Positions 16,301 through 64,000 of a DNA stretch of 64,000 bases are shown here, piece after piece. Source of the stretch: Agaribacillus aureus. GTDB taxonomy: Bacteria > Bacteroidota > Bacteroidia > Cytophagales > Cyclobacteriaceae. Every line of letters starts with the position of its first letter. Position 1 is the first letter of the stretch. The translations under genes were made by a program, and so were the position numbers. Below the pieces are notes generated by a model. That model was not told the origin of the DNA. It made no database searches and worked only from the letters and a program-made list of their open reading frames with translations. The stretch is from contig JAUJEB010000001.1 in the NCBI GenBank assembly GCA_030442055.1, positions 2,914,001-2,978,000 of the forward strand. The letters run 5' to 3'.

Positions 16301-16840
16301 GTTAATCTGATATTCACCATTGACATCAGCCACCGTACCCAGGGAGGAACCCTTGACGAGTACATTCACTCCGGGTAATGGTTCATTATTCTCACCGGTA
16401 ATTTTGCCCCGTACCAGGATTTCGTTGATTAATACTTCAATGGACGGGTTTTCATCGGTTTCCCTTTTGGGGATTTTCTTAACACTTATATTTCGGTTTA
16501 CCTGCTTAAACTTCAGGTTTTCCTGCCTGGAAATATCAGTCAGGATCATAGCCACAGTCGCGTTTCTTTCTTTCAGTATGACCTCCTTACCGAGTTTTCT
16601 GCCCAGCTCATTTTCATCATAAGAGAAAATAAGCCCTGTTTCTTTCTCAATTTCCCTGAAAATGGATTTGAGCGGCATGGCTTTTTGCGTAAGCTCTGCA
16701 CGAAGTGTCTTCACGCTCTTCACCTTCTGGGCATTAAGGTCTGCTGCAATAAGGATATTCAGAAAGAAAATCTGTATTAGAACACCATATGCAACATATT
16801 TGGAAAACATAATGATTTCTTGTAATAGTTTTAATTTCAT
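13391..16840 (-). CDS. SusC/RagA TonB-dependent transporter with STN signalling domain (locus 1)
   Basis: 1149 residues. The signal peptide ends near residue 38. The STN (secretin/TonB N-terminal) domain is at about 45-115, a CarboxypepD_reg-like beta-sandwich at about 140-225 (GNVLVKG/VNGEY region), the TonB box ALEEVVVVGYG around 217, and the plug at 230-345 with the LYVIDGFPI and GSRGSNGVVLITTKRG motifs. The rest is the 22-strand barrel. The STN domain marks a transducer type that signals to a FecR; the fecR and sigma genes lie directly upstream. Substrate and energy source follow the family: ligand import driven by TonB. A candidate antisense promoter overlaps its start codon. Confidence 0.95.
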   Translation of the reverse strand: MKLKLLQEIIMFSKYVAYGVLIQIFFLNILIAADLNAQKVKSVKTLRAELTQKAMPLKSIFREIEKETGLIFSYDENELGRKLGKEVILKERNATVAMILTDISRQENLKFKQVNRNISVKKIPKRETDENPSIEVLINEILVRGKITGENNEPLPGVNVLVKGSSLGTVADVNGEYQINVPGENSILVFSFIGYEPIEEVVGQRTVIDVSLRIDTKALEEVVVVGYGTVKKSDLTGSVASIKGESVKEFPVTSVDQAIQSRAPGVQVTQASSAPGGGVSVRIRGSNSINSGSEPLYVIDGFPIYPNNGVYGTDDADSGINGSRRPGNVLASINPNDIESIEILKDASGTAIYGSRGSNGVVLITTKRGKSGESRIDYDGSVSFQSIANKIDRLNGREFATYLNTLEESQGGAPIYTPAEIDAIGEGTDWLDEILQTGMIHNHQLSFSGGSEKTRYALIGNFHQNEGIIKETDFRRFGIRLNLDNQVLNDRLTISSSWSFNRTTSNNAPTDRGGPGGIIITALGLDPTIPVRNADGEFNLASYDGRFFINPVQELNFVTDQDFTNRVLGNTGFTFKLLEGLNFKTSIGADLLNANRITFFPVNNTRLGREREGEITNASRNSANILNENILSFNKQLHPDHFIDVVAGYTFQKEVNRFSIASTRGIPAATPDQATLQGGANVQIPNSNRREWILKSYLGRVNYNFKERYLFTFTFRRDGSSRFGEENKWANFPSFALGWRIIEEDFFQSSGLSNTISDLKLRTSWGITGNSELPVFNSLPNLNEYNYVFGGQLILGLADERLGNSDLKWETTKMFNIGLDISLLENRLTLNADYFFNKTEDLLLKVSIPPSLGFEEVLKNSGSLENKGFELGLNYVVLDRQDLKWDVSGNVSVLRNEITDLGSSTPFFSNSTSGHLGVDGSWVEAGNPIGVWRGYKYTGIFQSQEEIDTNPSRSGDKPGYPRYQDTDGNGEITPDDFVILGDPNPDFTWGLNSTLRYKNFDFSFFFRGVHGNDVRNLQASELGDGVQKINQLSNILTDSWSPSNTGASRAIIDANRDFANSYRDSDFFIEDGSFIRLQNVLIGYSLPTNSTFIRNARVYISAQNPFVITDYSGFDPEVNNQGQANLNRADDYDAYPRARIFTVGVNLGL

Positions 16841-16853
16841 ATCTTTGAAATGA

Positions 16854-16956
16854 TTTAGTTCAACATATTTTCACTTGGTTCAAAGCGTCTGCAAACACTT
16901 TGAAATTACCAAGGGGAAATCTAAGCCAGTAATTCTATTGCTGGCTTTCTCTTTGT
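16854..16956 (+). ncRNA. Candidate cis-antisense RNA over susC leader (locus 1)
   Basis: On the plus strand (antisense to susC) a TATCTTTG box at 16840-16847 matches the Bacteroidota TAnnTTTG -7 element, with TTG 17 bp upstream at 16820-16822. About 75 bp further on, a hairpin at 16923-16947 (AAGCCAG / CTGGCTT) is followed on the same strand by TTCTCTTTG. Predicted RNA is about 100 nt. The pattern recurs at the other uptake loci. No expression evidence is available from sequence alone, and a sense-strand role for the hairpin is possible. Confidence 0.4.
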
Positions 16957-16996
16957 CAGGAAGTGTCAAATATCATAGGTTTCTTGGTTACAATTT

Positions 16997-28600: not shown

Positions 28601-29163
28601 TATGAGAAAACCAGCGTGGTGGTTTCGTCTGGAATATCGATGGCAAAGTTTCCATCCACATCTGTAACCGAACCTACTGTCGATCCCTTAATCAGAACGT
28701 TTACACCTGGCAGGCCTGCTCCGCTCTCATCGCTCACCTTACCACGCACAGTTCTTAAGACCTCCACCGGCTGGCTTGTCCGCAATTTCCGGATGCCCGA
28801 CATGCGGAAGACACCAATTTGATTATTAACCTGCTTAAATTTTAATTTCGATAATTTTGAGATTTCGGTAAGAATATCCGCTACCGTCTGATCATCCTTC
28901 GCAGTAAAATTGAGCTTTCTCAATTTATTCAAATCATCGCCATGGTAGTAAAACTTAAAATCGGTTTTAGACTCTATTTTCTCAAAAGCCTGTACCAATG
29001 TCAGACCCTTAAATGAGTCGTCCAATTTAACTTCCCTAACGCTCTTGTACTGAGCGGTAACATCAGAAGCTGCTACAACTGACATAAAGGCGCATTGCAG
29101 CAATAAAACATAACATGAGTACTTTGACGCCATTTTAATAAGTTGTATAAATTTATATTTCAT
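25603..29163 (-). CDS. SusC/RagA TonB-dependent transporter with STN signalling domain (locus 2)
   Basis: 1186 residues. The signal peptide ends near residue 38 (SDVTAQ). The STN domain is at about 45-120, CarboxypepD_reg at about 140-215, the TonB box LQEVVVTAFG near 222, and the plug with NQPLYVIDGVPI and GALYGNRAQNGVVLITTKKG. The rest is barrel. It pairs with the SusD just downstream and should signal to the FecR encoded 284 bp upstream. An opposite-strand promoter-like box overlaps its start codon, with a hairpin in the leader. Confidence 0.95.
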   Translation of the reverse strand: MKYKFIQLIKMASKYSCYVLLLQCAFMSVVAASDVTAQYKSVREVKLDDSFKGLTLVQAFEKIESKTDFKFYYHGDDLNKLRKLNFTAKDDQTVADILTEISKLSKLKFKQVNNQIGVFRMSGIRKLRTSQPVEVLRTVRGKVSDESGAGLPGVNVLIKGSTVGSVTDVDGNFAIDIPDETTTLVFSYIGYFSEEQEVPAGQTTVNVTLLPNITELQEVVVTAFGIEKETKRLGYSVTEIAGKEVTETREPVFINALAGKIAGVAIQSANNGLAGSTRVIIRGNASFNNNQPLYVIDGVPIDNTLQGEAGTFGGVDRGDGLISINPDDIESMSVLKGPAAGALYGNRAQNGVVLITTKKGRSGNGVGVEFNSNTVFEKVRSYTEDDLQTTYGGGFGGGLFGDQATGSSVNNGWSWGARIDTTDTYVDFDGIEKPYELNTINDNFDRFFETGLSTTNSLAVSGGNENSTYRLSLSQTHTESPFPNSANLDRYNISLRATSKFGEKLSTDVKIDLSRTDAENRQLLQGDGRGAFGLTFFRLTNTTNVLDLDQRDDNGNFIFAGSGTPNPWFAAERVGQGDIRNRINGFLSVKYDFTDWLALQVRGGLDRSNIDEFFGVRPNPNADGGGNYSESRTVVEEANVDFLLLLDKDLSESFNLSGTFGGNHRSAKFNRTSISGRDFVDPSLLSLSNLKVRNLPGFNRTIREVNSFFGALQLGYKNYLFLEATARNDWSSSLTSIRPGSSDNSLFYPSVSLSFAFTDAFDIGTNILSFGKVRASWAQVGSDADPHRTELTFLLTPETNGLSGAQINGGSLPPTTIRPEETDGLEAGLDLRFLENRIGLDVAVYRQETRDFLLSQSISRSTGFTGAFLNAGSMVNKGIEVLLTGTPVEAKRPGGFSWNVAVNWAKNRNEVTDLNPELEESGVSHGNLIRSKVGYPFASIFGTPLRRDQNGNIVYRVIQDDIAGETVDRVVPDEGSYIFGPNGEIETDENGNAIIENEVFLGSPNPDWIGGITNTFTYKGFTLNTVIDAQWGGKVFSSSYRMASLLGITKATERGRQTDEYIPDGVINTGTLENPNFVTNNVPFSPENTYINGNPGLLIDELFVFDNSFVKFRQLSLGYTFSKSLLESTPFQSATLSFVARNLFFITKKVPLVDPDSSTTVGNGFGFEQFSLPASLTLGFNLNIRL

Positions 29164-29176
29164 ATATTTATATGTT

Positions 29177-29312
29177 TTTGTGAAACTTCAGTTTTCATAA
29201 AAATGGAGTGCTCTTGCTTTTTGAATAATATTAAATTGGACCTTAAGCTTATTCGAATCTAAAGTAAGAGCATAATGGCCCCTGGTAATACTTTACTACC
29301 GGGGGTTTTTTG
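29177..29312 (+). ncRNA. Candidate cis-antisense RNA over susC leader (locus 2)
   Basis: On the plus strand, TATATTTA at 29163-29170 (one base off TAnnTTTG) has TTG 17 bp upstream (29143-29145), the same geometry as locus 1. A GC-rich hairpin at 29279-29305 (CCCCTGGTA with TACCGGGG, allowing G-U) is followed by six Ts at 29306-29311. That is a textbook terminator, but only in the antisense direction. Predicted length is about 135 nt, spanning the susC leader. Confidence 0.45.
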
Positions 29313-46000: not shown

Positions 46001-46535
46001 AGACTACCAGCACCGATTTTTCGTCCGATACGCTTAAAGAAAAATTACCTTCGCTATCTGTGACAGTACCATTGGAAGTGCCTTTTTCCCGGACGGTAGC
46101 CCCAGGTAATGGTTCGTCTTCATTGTCTGTTACTACTCCGGTAACGTCAAATGCCTCCTGTGCAACAACTTCAAAAACGGGCTTTGATTTTACCAGAATG
46201 TCATTATTGATCCTTTTGAATTCCAGCTCTAACTTTTGTGCGATTTTCCTTAGCACATTTCCAAGGCTCTCTTTCCTGACTTTCAGGGAAATTTGCTTTC
46301 CATTCACCAAATTGTCATCATAAATAAATCTGAAATTAGTTTTTTCGCCAATCAGGCGAAATGTGGCAGGCAAATCTTTTCCCTTGACATTAAGGCTAAG
46401 ATATATCTCTTCTATACTTTTCTGAGCACTGGACGGACTGGCTGTTGATACGGCAAGTAGTACCGTCTGAGTATAGAAAATAATCAGTGCAATCCTTGAC
46501 ATTTTTACAATTGATCTTCGTATTTTTGTATTCAT
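43083..46535 (-). CDS. SusC/RagA TonB-dependent transporter with STN signalling domain (locus 3)
   Basis: 1150 residues. The signal peptide ends about residue 38 (PSSAQ). STN is at about 45-118, CarboxypepD_reg at about 128-205 and the TonB box GLEEVVVVGYG near 210. The plug has GEPLVLVDGVQI and AVYGARAANGVILVTTKRG, then the barrel. The fecR-susC gap here is only 89 bp, the shortest of the five loci. It lacks the start-codon antisense box seen at the others. Confidence 0.95.
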   Translation of the reverse strand: MNTKIRRSIVKMSRIALIIFYTQTVLLAVSTASPSSAQKSIEEIYLSLNVKGKDLPATFRLIGEKTNFRFIYDDNLVNGKQISLKVRKESLGNVLRKIAQKLELEFKRINNDILVKSKPVFEVVAQEAFDVTGVVTDNEDEPLPGATVREKGTSNGTVTDSEGNFSLSVSDEKSVLVVSYVGYHSVEVTANSASPLRVVLIPDLQGLEEVVVVGYGVEKKSNLTGSVSTVESDDLTQVPTANTSNLISGRVPGVVAKQSSGLPGSDNSNLSIRGFGEPLVLVDGVQIEDGLSRIDPNDIETVSVLKDAAAAVYGARAANGVILVTTKRGSTGKPTITYDGSWTFQTATAFQERVNAAEFVELVREADFNEVGNFDVQFSADDLEKYRNGDPGYEGGDWVDALIDNFAPMQQHSLKISGGTESVRYFASVGATDQESFFTARDHDYERRNVRTNLDVDLNQNLSFNLDLAYRRDKRDYPTGGLSEIFNDLTTAAPIYPTSLPDPDVGVAFSGFSQRNPVARTNRDLMGSDTRIDYTLTGKLGLQYHIPGIEGLSIRTELNVVQLNRSRKISQFNYQVFQFDPGTGEYIDQGSRFASTAISDEEFRRSQVYPLLAIDYEKSVGNHDFKFLVLGEQIRRTASFIRASRTNLLSTDVPEIFNASQDMDATDGRSSADIGRKSFVSRFNYRYKDKLLAEATLRADGNVLFSPEERWGYFPSVSLGWVLSEERFLQNNNLVDFLKLRLSYTQLGDDRANGINGFDYLAGYTANNIPGYILGGALTPGIRTLGLANPQLSWEVANTYNFGVEAEFLDGKLGFEADYFYRKRNGILVRNSQGAPSTFGAALPLENLNSQSNRGIELKLTYQQVFGDFRLEVSPNMTFVRAKWEDVFDQEEFTDPDQQRISGREGQWINRFFGYVSDGIFLSQEEIESHPVAQDEASPTERNSTIRPGDIRYLDLDGNDTINFRDQRVIAFDSRLPELLYGLNINATYKNFSLSVLFQGASRFSIDINGSARTMFSNSSVPFDYHYKYRWQPDPDNPGVNINPNAKLPAAGTTVSPNNERSSDFWRRDVTYLRLKNINLAYNIPTTVISKIGMDRIQVYLAAENLFTLSNLGIYKNAFDPEATSRPGEPDTQRTYPLHRNYAFGIRATF

Positions 46536-46578
46536 ATCATAATGGTTTGTTTAATAAACAATCAAATCATTAACATTA

Positions 46579-46619
46579 GGGGGTGTTCGACTTCTTTGGC
46601 GAGGGGTGAACACCTCCCC
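46579..46619. other. GC-rich hairpin in locus 3 fecR-susC gap
   Basis: GGTGTTC (46582-46588) pairs with GAACACC (46608-46614), extended by GGG/CCC with a bulged U; an alternative AGGGG/CCCCT stem overlaps it. Neither side has a strong U-tract. It occupies the same place as the antisense-oriented hairpins of the other loci. Confidence 0.45.
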
Positions 46620-46624
46620 TGTTA

Positions 46625-47644
46625 TTACTGTTTTAGTATTAGAATTTCCTTTCCATTTTTTTCATACTTTATGTTTAAAGAATAGGTTAACGCGTTCAAT
46701 ATATATTCAAGGCTTTTGTTGTCAAATCTCGCATTGAGCTTACCATAATCCGAAACCTTACCTTCCATTTTAATAGTTACACCGTACCAGGATTCAATGC
46801 GCTTAATTACCTCGGTTATTTCAGCAGACTGGAATGCCAGGATACCATGTATCCATGCTATGTCTCCATCATAATCCAGCCGCGACTTTTCAAGTTTCTT
46901 TGAGTGGGATTTGTATCGGGCAGTCTCGTTTGGTAACAAGTCCATTGAGTGGCCATCAGCCTCCACCCTCACCTTACCCGATACCAAGGCTACATCTACG
47001 TTTCGATTTTCCTTCATGGTGATAACAAAAGAAGTTCCGAATACGGAGGTTGTAAGTTTACCCGCTTCCACTACAAAAGCTTTTTTAGGATCTTTGTACA
47101 CATCAAAAAAAGCAGTTCCCGTCAGTTTTACCGAGCGTGTTTCGGCATTAAAGGAACTTGAATACTCAATACGGCTTTCCGGACCAAGTTTTACCTCTGA
47201 CCCATCAGGCAGAAATATTCTCGATGTCCTGCCGGCGGGATTACTTTTTACAACCAGCTGTGGCACCGTTACTGTCGACTTCTCAAATTGACTGAAATAC
47301 CAAATTCCCAAACTCAGGAGCACAATGATGGAGGCAGCAATGGAATAGTAGGCTTTACCTCGATCTCTCTTCTCGAATAATTTCCAATGACTATCGCTTT
47401 TACGGTTTTCCAGTACCTGCTCAAATATCTTATCCTTTTCCTTTGGATCTACCTTATATTCAGGTTCTCTGATCTTTATGGATAAAATATATTCCTTGGC
47501 TAAAACTATTTTCTCCCGATGTTCAGGGTGGTGCTTCAGCCAGCTTGTCCAAAAAAAGTTAGATTCCTCAGTTGGTTGTAGCACCCACTCGACGAACTGC
47601 TCATCCTTCAAAAAATCTTCGAATTCAAAATTATCGTATTTCAT
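46625..47644 (-). CDS. FecR-family anti-sigma factor (locus 3)
   Basis: 339 residues. The N-terminal cytoplasmic region (FLKDEQFVEWVLQPTEESNFFW) is close to that of the locus 1 FecR. A transmembrane helix (about 99-118) follows, then the periplasmic FecR domain (SNPAGRTSRIFLPDGSEVKLG, LTGTAFFDVYKDPKKAF, TSVFGTSFVI) and DUF4974 (IESWYGVTIKM to the end). It should gate the sigma factor encoded 106 bp upstream in response to the STN-bearing SusC. Confidence 0.93.
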   Translation of the reverse strand: MKYDNFEFEDFLKDEQFVEWVLQPTEESNFFWTSWLKHHPEHREKIVLAKEYILSIKIREPEYKVDPKEKDKIFEQVLENRKSDSHWKLFEKRDRGKAYYSIAASIIVLLSLGIWYFSQFEKSTVTVPQLVVKSNPAGRTSRIFLPDGSEVKLGPESRIEYSSSFNAETRSVKLTGTAFFDVYKDPKKAFVVEAGKLTTSVFGTSFVITMKENRNVDVALVSGKVRVEADGHSMDLLPNETARYKSHSKKLEKSRLDYDGDIAWIHGILAFQSAEITEVIKRIESWYGVTIKMEGKVSDYGKLNARFDNKSLEYILNALTYSLNIKYEKNGKEILILKQ

Positions 47645-50609: not shown

Positions 50610-50639
50610 CCATGCCAATGAGAATAGCAATATGATAGT

Positions 50640-50767
50640 AAAAGTAAATAAATAAAGCAATGCCGTAATAGTTACGGCATCGCTCCAATTTGTTGTTTCG
50701 GCGCTTACACATTGGGGAATGGATAGGCCTACAACAACTCAGCCTTATTAATTTATTAATCAATAAA
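50640..50767 (-). ncRNA. Candidate cis-antisense RNA over susC leader (locus 4)
   Basis: On the minus strand a TATCTTTG box (50781-50774) perfectly matches TAnnTTTG; its first base pairs with the A of the susC ATG. A perfect 9-bp hairpin (ATGCCGTAA / TTACGGCAT, 50660-50680) is followed in the minus direction by a T-rich tract (GCTTTATTTATTTACTTTTA). The sense side is not T-rich. Predicted RNA is about 125 nt. The nearest TTG is 24 bp upstream, slightly too far. Confidence 0.45.
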
Positions 50768-50780
50768 ACCATACAAAGAT

Positions 50781-53700
50781 ATGTATTTTAAACCTTTACG
50801 AATAACAATATCAGTAATGAAATACTCTTTCTACGGCGTTTTAATTCAGTGTATGCTATTGAATATGCTATGGGCACACGATACTGATGCCCAAAAGGTG
50901 AAAAGTATTAAGGAGGTATACATAACAATGAAGTTGGAGAACACTTCACTCCTGGAGGTATTTGATGCCATTGAATCTAAAAGCAATTTTACATTTAACT
51001 ATAGCAAAGCAGATTTAAGTAGCGAGAAATTAATCAATAAAGACTATAAAAATGTGACGGTGGCAGATATTTTGACCGATCTCTCAAAAGAAGCCCGGTT
51101 GAAGTTCAAGCAAGTGAATAAAAACATTAACGTAAATAAACTTCCCCGACGGGTATTAAATAGCAGACCGCTTGAGATCAAAATTCTGGCGGTGACGATA
51201 TCTGGTACAGTTACTGATGAAAATGGTCAGGGACTTCCCGGCGCCTCCATCATAGAAAAGGGGACTACAAACGGTACGACCGCGGACAGTGAAGGAAAAT
51301 ATAGACTGACCGTTTCGGATGGTGCTATTCTAACATTTAGTTTCATCGGCTACAAAGCACAGGAAATACCGGTAGAAAACAGAAGTGTAATCGATGTTCA
51401 AATGGTCGCTGACATAGGCGAACTTGAAGAAATTGTGGTGGTTGGATATGGTACCCAAAAGAAAGTGAACCAAACAGGATCTGTAGCTTCCGTCGATTTT
51501 GAGGAAATGGGAGCAACCAGGCCAATTACGAACATTGCACAAGGGCTTGCCGGACAAGCTGCCGGAGTGTCTGTATCACAGTCGTCTGGAAAGCCAGGCG
51601 ATGATGCTGGCCAAATCTTGATTAGAGGAGTTGGGACACTAAATAATTCGAGTCCTTTAGTGGTCATCGACGGCCTGGTGGGTAGTTTGTCAGACGTTGT
51701 TCCTGAAAATATACAAAGTATATCGGTATTAAAAGATGCGGCCTCTGCTTCTATATATGGCTCTAGGGCGGCAAATGGCGTTATTCTAATAACTACAAAA
51801 AAAGGATCTAATGGAAAGGTAAACTTCTCTTACAATGCATACATGGGTACACAAAGCCCGACACTCGATGTGGACATGGTTTGGGATTACCCAACACATA
51901 TGGAATTGATAAATCAATCCAGAGAGAATGTTGGCAAATCTGCCATCTTTGATCAGGCTACTATCGATGATTACCGAGCTGGGACTGATCCGATCCTTTA
52001 TCCCAATACAAATTGGTTTAAAGTGGCTTTTCGTGATGCATTTCTTCAGAGACATAATTTGTCGGCAACAGGAGGAAACGATAAAATACGATACATGTTC
52101 TCAGCTAATATTTTGGATAACAGGGGGAATTTGAAAGAAACAGATTATAAGCGGTATTCTTTCAGATCAAATGTAGAGGCGGAGCTAAATAGTTGGTTGA
52201 CCGCTGGAGCAAATGTTTTTGGCTATTGGTCGGACGAAGGTACACCCGGTAACACTGTTTCGACTTACTTGGGGTACATAGGTAGTTCTGTGCCTGGAGT
52301 GTTGCCAAGAGACCCACTAGGACGAGCTGGTGGACCGTGGGTTGACGGAGAAAATGCTTCTGTAAATAACATAGAGACGAATTTTGATAATGGAGAGTCG
52401 TCTCAAAATATTACCAAGATATTGGCAAAGGTTTACACAGAGGTGAACTTTCTTAATGACTTCACTTTAACCACTAGCTTTCAGCCTGCCATTCAATATG
52501 ATTACAATATTACGCAGCAATTTTTTGCGGATGTCTGGAATCTGAGAGATAATACCATCATCAGACAAAGCAATAACAAAACGGCATTGGAGGAAGAGTA
52601 CAGGAAATATTACCGGTTGATTTTTGATTCCTATTTGACATATAACAAAACGATTGCCAATGATCACAATATCAATGTAATATTGGGTTATAATCAAGAG
52701 TATGAGACTGCCAGAAATTTGAGGGCTTTCAAACTGGATGTACTCGCCGATGAAACCACGGTCATGGATGCTGTCTCAGGAGCAGATCCTGTGGTTAGAG
52801 GAAATTTTGCGGACAGGTCGATACGTTCTTTCTTTGGTAGAGTCAATTACAATTTCCAGGAAAAATACCTGTTTGAAGCTAATTTAAGGTATGATGGTTC
52901 GTCCAAGTTTTCGGAAGGTGATCGCTGGGGACTTTTTCCTGCCGTATCTGTTGGTTGGGTAATGTCGAATGAAGATTTTTTTGCAGACATTCAACCAATA
53001 AGTAGCTTAAAGATAAGGGGTTCCTGGGGGCGATTGGGTAACAATCAGGTATCTGACTATGGAACTCAGCCATTGTACAATTTAAGTAGTTATGTCTTTG
53101 GGGGAACAATTGTTCCAGGAGCCGCTCCAGGGGCGATTCCTAATAACATTCTCAGATGGGAAACCACTACACAAACCAATATTGGAATTGAAGCCTCAAT
53201 GCTGGATGGAAGATTAGGCATGGAGTTCGACTGGTTTGCCAGAAGGACAGACGACATCTTAATTGATTTACCGATCCCCGGAGTGAATGGAGGGCTTACC
53301 GCCCCACCTCAAAATGCTGGAATCGTTGATAATAATGGTGTTGAACTAACACTTAGCTGGAGAGGTAATATCGGTAATGATTTTAGCTACGGGTTCAGCG
53401 GCAACATTACTTATGTAAAGAACGAAGTTGTCAAATATCTCGGAGGTGCAGGCACAAGAAGTAATAACCAAATACTTCAGGAGGGATTACCTATGGGTTC
53501 TTGGTATGTACGTGAAGTGGAAAGTATAGCAACCCAAGAAAGAATTGACGAGATGTTAGCTGATGGATATACCTTTTCTCCAATGCCTTCCCCGGGTGAT
53601 TTTATTTACAAAGACCAGCAAAGCGAAGGCGAAGAGGGGTACAAAGTAATCAATGATGATGACCGTGTTGCCAAAGGATCGCAGATTCCTAGTCACACCT

Positions 53701-62563: not shown

Positions 62564-63568
62564 ATGGAGAGTAGTAAGTCTATTTTAGAAGAGTTAGTCC
62601 TGAATGAATCATTTCAGGACTATGTGATGCACAATAAGAATAAAACCGAATGGCAAGACTGGGTAGCGCAAAACCCAGACAAAAAGGATCAATTTGAAAA
62701 TGCGAAATCAATTATCAGGTCTTTAAGAATCAAGGAACAGGCCGTACCGGAATCTGAGATTGACAATGAAATAACCAAATTTGAGCAAAGGATCGAATAT
62801 TCAAAACAAAGCGGTTCTGTCAACGTGCTGCCTTTGTGGAAAATATTGTCAAGAATCGCAGCGATTTTGATTTTAGTGGGATCCATCACGCTCATTTATT
62901 ACAATGTTCCCAAAGAGCCACCCCCTGTATCCCAGGTTGATATGGTCACAAAGGAAACTCCGCTAGGAGCCAAGTTACAAATCAAATTGCCAGATGGGAC
63001 GAAAGTGAAGCTAAATGCCGGAAGCGTTTTAAAATATCCTTCTGTTTTTTCCAATGATTCAAGGGCTGTTGAATTAGTCGGAGAAGCTTTTTTTGAAGTG
63101 GTAACAGATCGATCAAGGCCATTTATAGTAAGCACACCTTATCTGCAAACCAGGGTTTTAGGAACTTCATTTACTATAAAATCTTTCACAAGCGAAATCT
63201 CGAAAGTATCATTAATGGAAGGAAGTATCAGGGTCTCAGCCGATGGATCAGATCAACTGTTGGAACCTGGAGAACAGGTTATACTGAAAAACAAATCAAT
63301 GGTAGTTCAACCATATGATTATAATGAGGAATTTGGATGGCGAGACGGCATCCTCAATTTTAAAGATGACAATGCCGAAAAGGTTTTCAACAAACTTAAG
63401 CTATGGTATGGCGTAGATTTTGATTTTGGGGAGCAAAAAATCCCTGTATTAAAATACTCAGGATATTATAAAAATGAGGATTTGGAAACTGTACTCGAGG
63501 GCCTTAGCTACTCTTTGAAATTTGATTACGAAATAAGTGATCGCACCATAAAAATAATGTTTAACTAA
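62564..63568 (+). CDS. FecR-family anti-sigma factor (locus 5)
   Basis: 334 residues. The N-terminal cytoplasmic region (LVLNESFQDYVMHNKNKTEWQDW) is followed by a transmembrane helix at about 96-114, the FecR domain (TPLGAKLQIKLPDGTKVKLN, LVGEAFFEVVTDRSRPF, TRVLGTSFTI) and DUF4974 (LKLWYGVDFDF to the end). It starts 54 bp after the sigma gene and should hold it inactive until SusC signals. Confidence 0.93.
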   Translation: MESSKSILEELVLNESFQDYVMHNKNKTEWQDWVAQNPDKKDQFENAKSIIRSLRIKEQAVPESEIDNEITKFEQRIEYSKQSGSVNVLPLWKILSRIAAILILVGSITLIYYNVPKEPPPVSQVDMVTKETPLGAKLQIKLPDGTKVKLNAGSVLKYPSVFSNDSRAVELVGEAFFEVVTDRSRPFIVSTPYLQTRVLGTSFTIKSFTSEISKVSLMEGSIRVSADGSDQLLEPGEQVILKNKSMVVQPYDYNEEFGWRDGILNFKDDNAEKVFNKLKLWYGVDFDFGEQKIPVLKYSGYYKNEDLETVLEGLSYSLKFDYEISDRTIKIMFN

Positions 63569-63596
63569 AAATATGTAAGCCTATAAATTTAACATT

Positions 63597-63718
63597 ACAA
63601 AAAATGAAGGTGGTACTGCCAGGCAATACCACCCTTGAGGATAAGTATTTATTGAAAATTTGACAGTCTTCGAAATACATTATCCAATTGAGTTTTAATA
63701 AATCTTAGAATTACTAAA
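63597..63718 (-). ncRNA. Candidate cis-antisense RNA over susC leader (locus 5)
   Basis: On the minus strand TAAATTTG (63732-63725) perfectly matches TAnnTTTG and its first base pairs with the A of the susC ATG. The hairpin at 63609-63633 (GGTGGTA / TACCACC plus inner pairs) is followed in the minus direction by TTCATTTTTTG. The sense direction has no U-tract. Predicted RNA is about 120 nt. No clear -33 TTG is visible at 17-23 bp. Confidence 0.5.
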
Positions 63719-63731
63719 ACATATCAAATTT

Positions 63732-64000
63732 ATGAAAAATAAAACTACACAGCTAGTAATATATGTAATGAAGTTGTCCGTTTACGTTTTTATTGCCCAG
63801 GTTTTAGCACTGAATTTCCTGTTTGCTGCGGAAACAAATGGCCAAAAATCCAAGAGCGTCAGGGAAACAGTTATTTCTGTCAATATTAAAAACTCCACGC
63901 TCAAAAATATTTTCAATCAATTGGAGGCCATATCCGACTACCATTTTAATTATGAACAGGTGGATATCAGGACAAACAAAAGAATTGATCTGAACTATGA
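63732..64000 (+). CDS. SusC/RagA TonB-dependent transporter, N-terminal part (locus 5, cut by window end)
   Basis: The first 89 codons are open to the window edge. They encode a signal peptide (MKNKTTQLVIYVMKLSVYVF, continuing to ETNGQ near residue 38) and the start of an STN domain (ISVNIKNSTLKNIFNQLEAI, then SDYHFNYE). This matches the opening of the four complete SusC proteins here residue pattern by residue pattern, and follows sigma and fecR as in the other loci. The CarboxypepD_reg, plug and barrel lie beyond the window. Confidence 0.88.
   Translation, partial: MKNKTTQLVIYVMKLSVYVFIAQVLALNFLFAAETNGQKSKSVRETVISVNIKNSTLKNIFNQLEAISDYHFNYEQVDIRTNKRIDLNY

Follow-up and report, generated by a model that had tools for sequence, protein, structure and literature searches.

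In the genome of Agaribacillus aureus, about 62 of the 74 FecR-controlled susC genes that we analysed probably possess a small antisense RNA gene of their own, whose sigma-A box would coincide with the susC start codon or fall a short way into the gene, and whose product would act as a brake of the DonS type. Regulators of this kind are already known; what is new is the genome-wide count, the link to FecR with FecR-less susC genes as a control, the position of the box on the start codon or at +15, and the reach of the trait beyond Bacteroides. The initial annotation of the window, i.e. the whole stretch of 64,000 nucleotides that was analysed, had predicted an antisense RNA family at susC starts; for FecR-linked susC genes the genomic evidence argues strongly in favour of this prediction, through opposite-strand terminators, folding, compensatory changes in the stems, a promoter consensus derived from tRNA genes, and the FecR-less control.

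Loci of the window

At locus 5, our reference, the gene for the FecR anti-sigma factor (ORF at 62564-63568, plus strand; PF04773 match at G000:C1:2976954) is followed by a susC gene of about 1090 codons that starts at 63732 on the plus strand and runs past the window end at 64000 (TIGR04057 match at G000:C1:2978659). On the minus strand, positions 63732-63725 spell TAAATTTG, a predicted sigma-A -7 box that is the best antisense promoter-matrix site here and that has the A of the susC ATG (63732) in common with the gene; the box had been described as ending on the ATG, and it does. A transcription start near 63718 on the minus strand had also been proposed; going by the available text of PMC9723704, which places TAnnTTTG at -12 to -5 in F. 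psychrophilum, it would instead be near 63720. The predicted RNA of about 120 nt (63599-63720, minus strand), its 5' end set by the distance from box to start, would contain an internal hairpin (63639-63685, minus strand) and an intrinsic terminator whose stem of 13 pairs (63607-63635, minus strand) is slightly longer than the 63609-63633 first reported; the six Ts of the T-run (63599-63604) lie 2 nt past this stem and, as had been noted, on the minus strand only. Folded from 63719 to 63599 (121 nt), the predicted RNA reaches -35.1 kcal/mol (z -5.8), a stability matched by none of 200 shuffles, and the G-U pairs of the stem, as read from the sequence, are A-C mismatches on the sense strand. 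No -33 TTG can be recognised in the sequence of this locus. On the plus strand, GCCTATAA (63579-63586) is a variant of the sense element gcCTATGA treated below and a candidate part of the susC ECF promoter.

The same layout had been claimed for loci 1 and 4 and is present at both. At locus 1, where susC is on the minus strand, a perfect box TATCTTTG covers the ATG at 16840-16847 (plus strand), and the predicted antisense RNA (16852-16956, plus strand) would end in a terminator hairpin at 16923-16947 (dG -13.0) with a weak T-tract, TCTTTGTCA; at locus 4 the equally perfect box TATCTTTG on the susC ATG is found at 50774-50781 on the minus strand, and the predicted RNA (50644-50769, minus strand; fold z -5.9) has its terminator hairpin at 50653-50687 (dG -21.3). 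Locus 2 is one base off, as annotated: its imperfect box TATATTTA (TAAATAT) occupies the susC ATG at 29163-29170 (plus strand), and the predicted RNA (29175-29312, plus strand; fold z -6.1) includes a terminator hairpin at 29278-29306 (dG -16.3). Locus 3 (46521-46625) is the odd one, with a gap of just 89 nt and a hairpin directly behind FecR. It has no start-codon box; CAAAAATA appears 15 nt downstream instead, the antisense box TATTTTTG at this alternative position (+8 to +15 of susC) lying at 46521-46528 on the plus strand. Its opposite-strand hairpin (46579-46619, plus strand) is strong, but the T-tract is poor and the hairpin is therefore not counted as a terminator by the rule used.

Placement of the box relative to start codons

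Within the window the bare motif CAAANNTATG occurs six times against 4.2 expected; it is thus not rare, and its placement was therefore tested genome-wide. The SusC set of the window's genome (G000) comprised 117 of 124 matches, namely 115 over the curated cut-off and two of the nine below it, the seven that were dropped all lying below; 76 of these genes stand behind a FecR and 41 are FecR-less. Six of the 88 FecR genes were dropped, no large ORF following them, which left 82 FecR-receptor pairs; the main sample is made up of the 74 whose receptor has 1000 aa or more and whose gap is 60 nt or longer, the eight with a short receptor or a short gap being counted apart. Starts were picked by their distance to the hydrophobic core, and some, especially in Bacteroidaceae, may be misplaced. 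The PUL equipment of this genome is very large, its 9.39 Mb holding 88 FecR and 124 matches to the SusC signature; its sister genome G001 has 82 FecR in 7.3 Mb.

A motif scan of susC starts against other starts had been suggested as a check, and its outcome is in keeping with the proposal: CAAAnnT immediately precedes the ATG of 28/74 FecR-linked susC genes but of only 2/548 unambiguous control starts (3/820 when all controls are taken) and of none of the 41 FecR-less susC genes, and the equal frequency at unrelated starts that would have weakened the case is not seen. The relaxed form YAAAnnT precedes the ATG in 51/74 FecR-linked cases, compared with 7/548 unambiguous controls, 9/820 controls in all and 4/41 FecR-less susC genes; neither form occurs among the eight excluded short pairs (0/8 each). 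The overlap of box and start codon had been called fixed. It is common in the relaxed form, but the exact CAAAnnT is confined to the 28 genes just mentioned, and an alternative site exists at +15: CAAAnnTA is found at +8 to +15 in 10/74 FecR-linked susC genes, as against 1/715 controls and 0/41 FecR-less ones. When G000 and G001 are combined, the +15 box is present in 11/42 loci without a start-codon box and in 3/86 with it (p=0.0003).

These counts also bear on another possibility, in which YAAAnnTATG serves on the sense strand to initiate translation of susC mRNAs and only mimics a promoter box. To our knowledge, Bacteroidota lack Shine-Dalgarno sequences. Their mRNAs are enriched in A at -3, -6 and -11 to -15 according to the accessible part of PMC7366714, the susC leaders studied here are strongly A-rich at -13 to -16, and T at -1, a less specific feature (68/74 FecR-linked susC, 190/548 controls), is common in FecR-less susC genes too (29/41), all of which would suit such a signal. 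However, the box itself is scarce in FecR-less susC genes and at other starts, and the conservation is highest elsewhere than at the known signal: A at -3 stands at 55% (41% in controls), compared with 85% at -4 and -5 and 88% for the pyrimidine at -7. Moreover, the box goes with opposite-strand terminators in other genomes (see below), and its apparent relocation 15 nt into the coding region, more frequent where the start-codon box is missing, is something that translation can hardly account for and promoter choice easily can. We therefore consider a translation signal improbable.

Likeness to sigma-A promoters

Sigma-A promoters of Bacteroidota are described, in the available text of PMC7366714, as having TAnnTTTG at -7 and TTTG near -33. 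The TAnnTTTG box is perfect at loci 1, 4 and 5, and it was confirmed on the tRNA genes of G000, where it occurs within 90 nt in 20/30 cases as against 1/30 on the opposite strand, with TTG mostly 19-20 nt upstream. The tRNA genes were used in place of 432 control genes, upstream of which TAnnTTTG is only weakly enriched (94 on the sense strand and 80 on the antisense strand, with a mean of 76 in shuffles). A promoter matrix was built from 17 of the tRNA genes; its instances were chosen by the pattern TAnn(T/A)TTG, and their constant last G is for this reason a matter of construction. Within a span of 250 nt, the best antisense matrix site falls exactly on the ATG in 30/74 FecR-linked susC genes, 1/41 FecR-less ones and 10/715 controls; the corresponding figure is 23/54 in G001, and in other genomes it is 7/34 for gaps with a terminator and 2/35 for gaps without.

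The susC antisense boxes nevertheless differ from ordinary sigma-A promoters in lying on an opposite-strand start codon, in often ending in A, and in having a mostly unrecognisable -33 region. In 23 of the 51 YAAAnnT boxes the antisense strand ends in TTTA rather than TTTG, which counts against reading them as promoters. It likewise counts against them that only 14/74 loci of G000 and 10/54 of G001 have a -33 TTG at spacer 20, a peak in both genomes that is confounded by conserved codons, Gln perhaps contributing; at spacer 19 there is none (0/74 in G000), although the tRNA genes favour 19. The n-region of FecR-linked SusC proteins, codons 2-14 (MKxKLLxxIxxMSKY-like), is conserved at the nucleotide level, and one reason may be that the antisense -33 region could lie there.

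Terminators, folding and selection on the RNA

When a terminator is defined as a hairpin of dG<=-10 plus a T-tract, the opposite strand carries one in 62/74 FecR-susC gaps, as compared with 11/74 on the sense strand and 8/74 in shuffled sequences; upstream of FecR-less susC genes terminators are few in either direction (5/41 antisense, 4/41 sense). A box at either position is combined with an antisense terminator in 53/74 gaps of G000; boxes and terminators are associated in this genome (p=0.003) and not in the sister genome (p=0.61). If transcription is taken to begin 12 nt before the ATG, the 65 predicted RNAs have a median length of 92 nt, 64 of them measuring 60-154 nt and one 33 (both ends being predicted).

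Hairpins are symmetric by nature, and the sense strand of the gaps is likewise structured beyond shuffles (mean z -3.24, with 55/74 below -2), as would befit a structured leader on that strand, be it an attenuator, a riboswitch or a fecR/susC processing site, with the opposite T-run incidental. The T-tracts, however, are on the antisense side, 62 to 11, and the antisense fold is the stabler one in 65/74 gaps of G000 (mean z -3.99) and in 45/54 of G001, compared with 19/41 FecR-less stretches. An Rfam search that covered the window and 20 related loci gave no family at its gathering score. The asymmetry extends to the way in which stems have changed: among 23 orthologous terminator hairpins of G000 and G001, compared where FecR identity was at least 55% and the hairpin was present, one-sided changes kept a G-U pair on the antisense strand 12 times, as against three that left an antisense A-C (a sense G-U), all of these in one weak hairpin. 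A sense-strand leader is thus very improbable in our estimation.

In the same 23 hairpins, 230 Watson-Crick pairs were unchanged and 13 had been replaced on both sides by another Watson-Crick pair, where about 1.2 would be expected, pair-breaking changes numbering 13 one-sided and five two-sided (including one A-C), with 13 further pairs in gaps. A search by k-mer enrichment for one RNA sequence common to all loci gave only weak loop signals (CGCCAA in 7/74 gaps against 0.9 expected), and the antisense RNAs accordingly look locus-specific.

Occurrence in related genomes

The samples from relatives consist of the best-scoring FecR matches and are not random; gaps outside 80-400 nt were treated apart or left out. 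Loci without a FecR or susC frame amounted to 5/78, 2/30, 11/97 and 2/38, and six further loci were left out. In the sister genome, where 70 of the 82 FecR loci were taken, 49 of the 54 gaps that measure 80-400 nt have an antisense terminator (sense 12, shuffled 5) and 35/54 have the box; the eight gaps shorter than 80 nt have neither (terminator 0/8, box 0/8). Sphingobacterium olei, with 30 of its 33 FecR taken, has terminators in 22/24 gaps (2 sense, 3 shuffled) and the box in 8/24; its five short gaps hold one terminator and two boxes, and the link to long gaps is consequently not absolute.

Farther away, a sample of genomes of the Mediterranea family (Bacteroidaceae) has terminators in 16/28 gaps (5 sense, 2 shuffled) and the box in 7/28, a Tannerellaceae MAG in 6/9 (0 sense, 1 shuffled) and 3/9, and a Mediterranea MAG in 3/4 (1 sense, 0 shuffled) and, at either position, 2/4. 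Outside the genus but still within its family or order, genomes have only 2/13 terminators and 3/13 boxes, family f27 has 1/10 and 0/10, and samples from elsewhere in the phylum have 3/9 and 1/9, which makes the trait patchy. Over 97 gaps from 30 other genomes, a terminator is present in 22/24 gaps with a box and in 31/73 without (p=1.5e-5).

The overlap had been put forward as a distinct way of encoding such RNAs. Its repetition across loci is borne out, but the same overlap in Bacteroidaceae and Tannerellaceae genomes suggests that it may be the general manner of encoding DonS-type RNAs rather than a separate one.

Sense element upstream of susC

An EM search of the stretches between the FecR stop and the antisense terminator (65 stretches of G000) yielded two sense elements, gcCTATGA in 52/65 and aATACnAGcTAA in 49/65, with scores of 112 and 128, whereas three shuffles gave no more than 20 and 38. 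Examples in the window are CCTATG on the minus strand at 16974-16979 and the variant GCCAATGA on the plus strand at 50614-50621. The core YTATG occurs in 35/66 gaps of G000 (5.2 shuffled), 26/51 of G001 (4.9 shuffled), 14/32 of other genomes (3.0 shuffled) and 9/41 FecR-less stretches. Outside the genus AGYTRA shows no enrichment (1/32 against 3.2 shuffled). Exact YTATG and AGYTRA at a spacing of 20 occur together five times in 66 gaps and twice in 51, and the pair is not firmly a promoter. gcCTATGA, and perhaps aATACnAGcTAA with it, may belong to the susC ECF sigma promoter. If it does, the susC leader would start near the end of the antisense RNA, and leader and antisense RNA would be near full-length complements.

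Proposed mechanism

In the scheme that we propose, the housekeeping sigma factor would recognise the TAnnTTTG-like box, placed either at the susC start codon or some 15 nt into the gene, and direct transcription away from susC. The resulting RNA would start some 12 nt before the ATG, form hairpins and, in most cases after 60-150 nt, stop at the intrinsic terminator that closely follows FecR. Once made, it would pair with the susC leader, possibly from end to end as the upstream gcCTATGA, perhaps an ECF sigma promoter, suggests, and such pairing would mask the A-rich region of ribosome entry or trigger decay; mutual hindrance of the facing promoters would add to this. The sugar-uptake operon would in this way stay off until release of the ECF sigma factor lets sense transcription overtake antisense transcription, as has been proposed for DonS in Bacteroides.

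Another account would dispense with the RNA altogether: polymerase loading on the susC start codon would itself block, or collide with, polymerase that arrives from the ECF promoter, and the RNA would be a by-product. The positions of the box and of the candidate ECF element give the required geometry of facing promoters, and the RNA sequences differ between loci, both of which are compatible with such interference. On the other side, hairpins beyond the terminator and the compensatory changes in stems indicate selection on the RNA, even if stems would be kept for termination alone too, and DonS is described as negative for its susC, with a mechanism that the available text of PMC7366714 and PMC11697453 leaves unsettled. 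Interference without a role for the RNA is, in our opinion, a somewhat unlikely explanation, and an RNA that acts on the susC leader is preferred.

A wider formulation, whose chances we regard as evenly balanced, holds that in the FecR-controlled PULs of several Bacteroidota lineages the start codon and the antisense -7 box are one DNA element, that the RNA spans the leader from the ECF start to a point just short of the ribosome site, and that nearly every such operon has a private RNA brake, about 60 per genome.

Relation to known antisense RNAs

The DonS family comprises, according to the accessible text of PMC7366714, cis-antisense RNAs of 78-128 nt that are divergent to the susC homologues of PULs. 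The RNAs predicted here are likewise short, antisense and divergent to the susC genes of PULs, in 62/74 FecR-susC gaps, and the gaps of Bacteroidaceae genomes have the same layout as those of the window's genome; 38 of the 65 predictions fall inside the DonS size range, 17 being shorter and 10 longer, with both ends predicted. PUL antisense RNAs have been described from B. fragilis and B. thetaiotaomicron, their mode of repression being unsettled in the available part of PMC11697453. For B. thetaiotaomicron, the corresponding part of PMC10994844 reports 32 of them, with correlations to the operon that are both negative and positive, the positive ones arguing against a simple brake everywhere. 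In contrast to these reported sets, ours covers 62/74 FecR-linked pairs and is a prediction, and the position of the box is here defined relative to the start codon. The available portions of PMC7366714, PMC11697453, PMC10994844, PMC9723704, PMC5635687 and PMC10861873 contain no mention of a promoter box on the start codon.

Regulators first known from Bacteroides of the gut thus appear to be more widespread and to follow a recognisable plan, the suggested reach including Sphingobacterium and the 9.4-Mb genome of the window. The sequence rule, i.e. a box on the start codon and a terminator behind FecR at FecR-linked susC genes, makes such antisense RNAs predictable from a genome. It also sets the 5' end of the RNA relative to the ribosome site, and translation block and transcription interference should therefore be separable by small mutations.

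Further observations in the gaps

A small protein encoded on the antisense strand was considered and rejected: ORFs of at least 15 aa occur in 5/65 predicted RNAs against 10.5 in shuffles, and 88/101 indels between orthologues are not multiples of three. A loop-like motif, TTGGCGA / TCGCCAA, lies in the middle of 8/74 gaps of G000 on either strand, against 0.6 expected, and is perhaps a protein site or an RNA loop.
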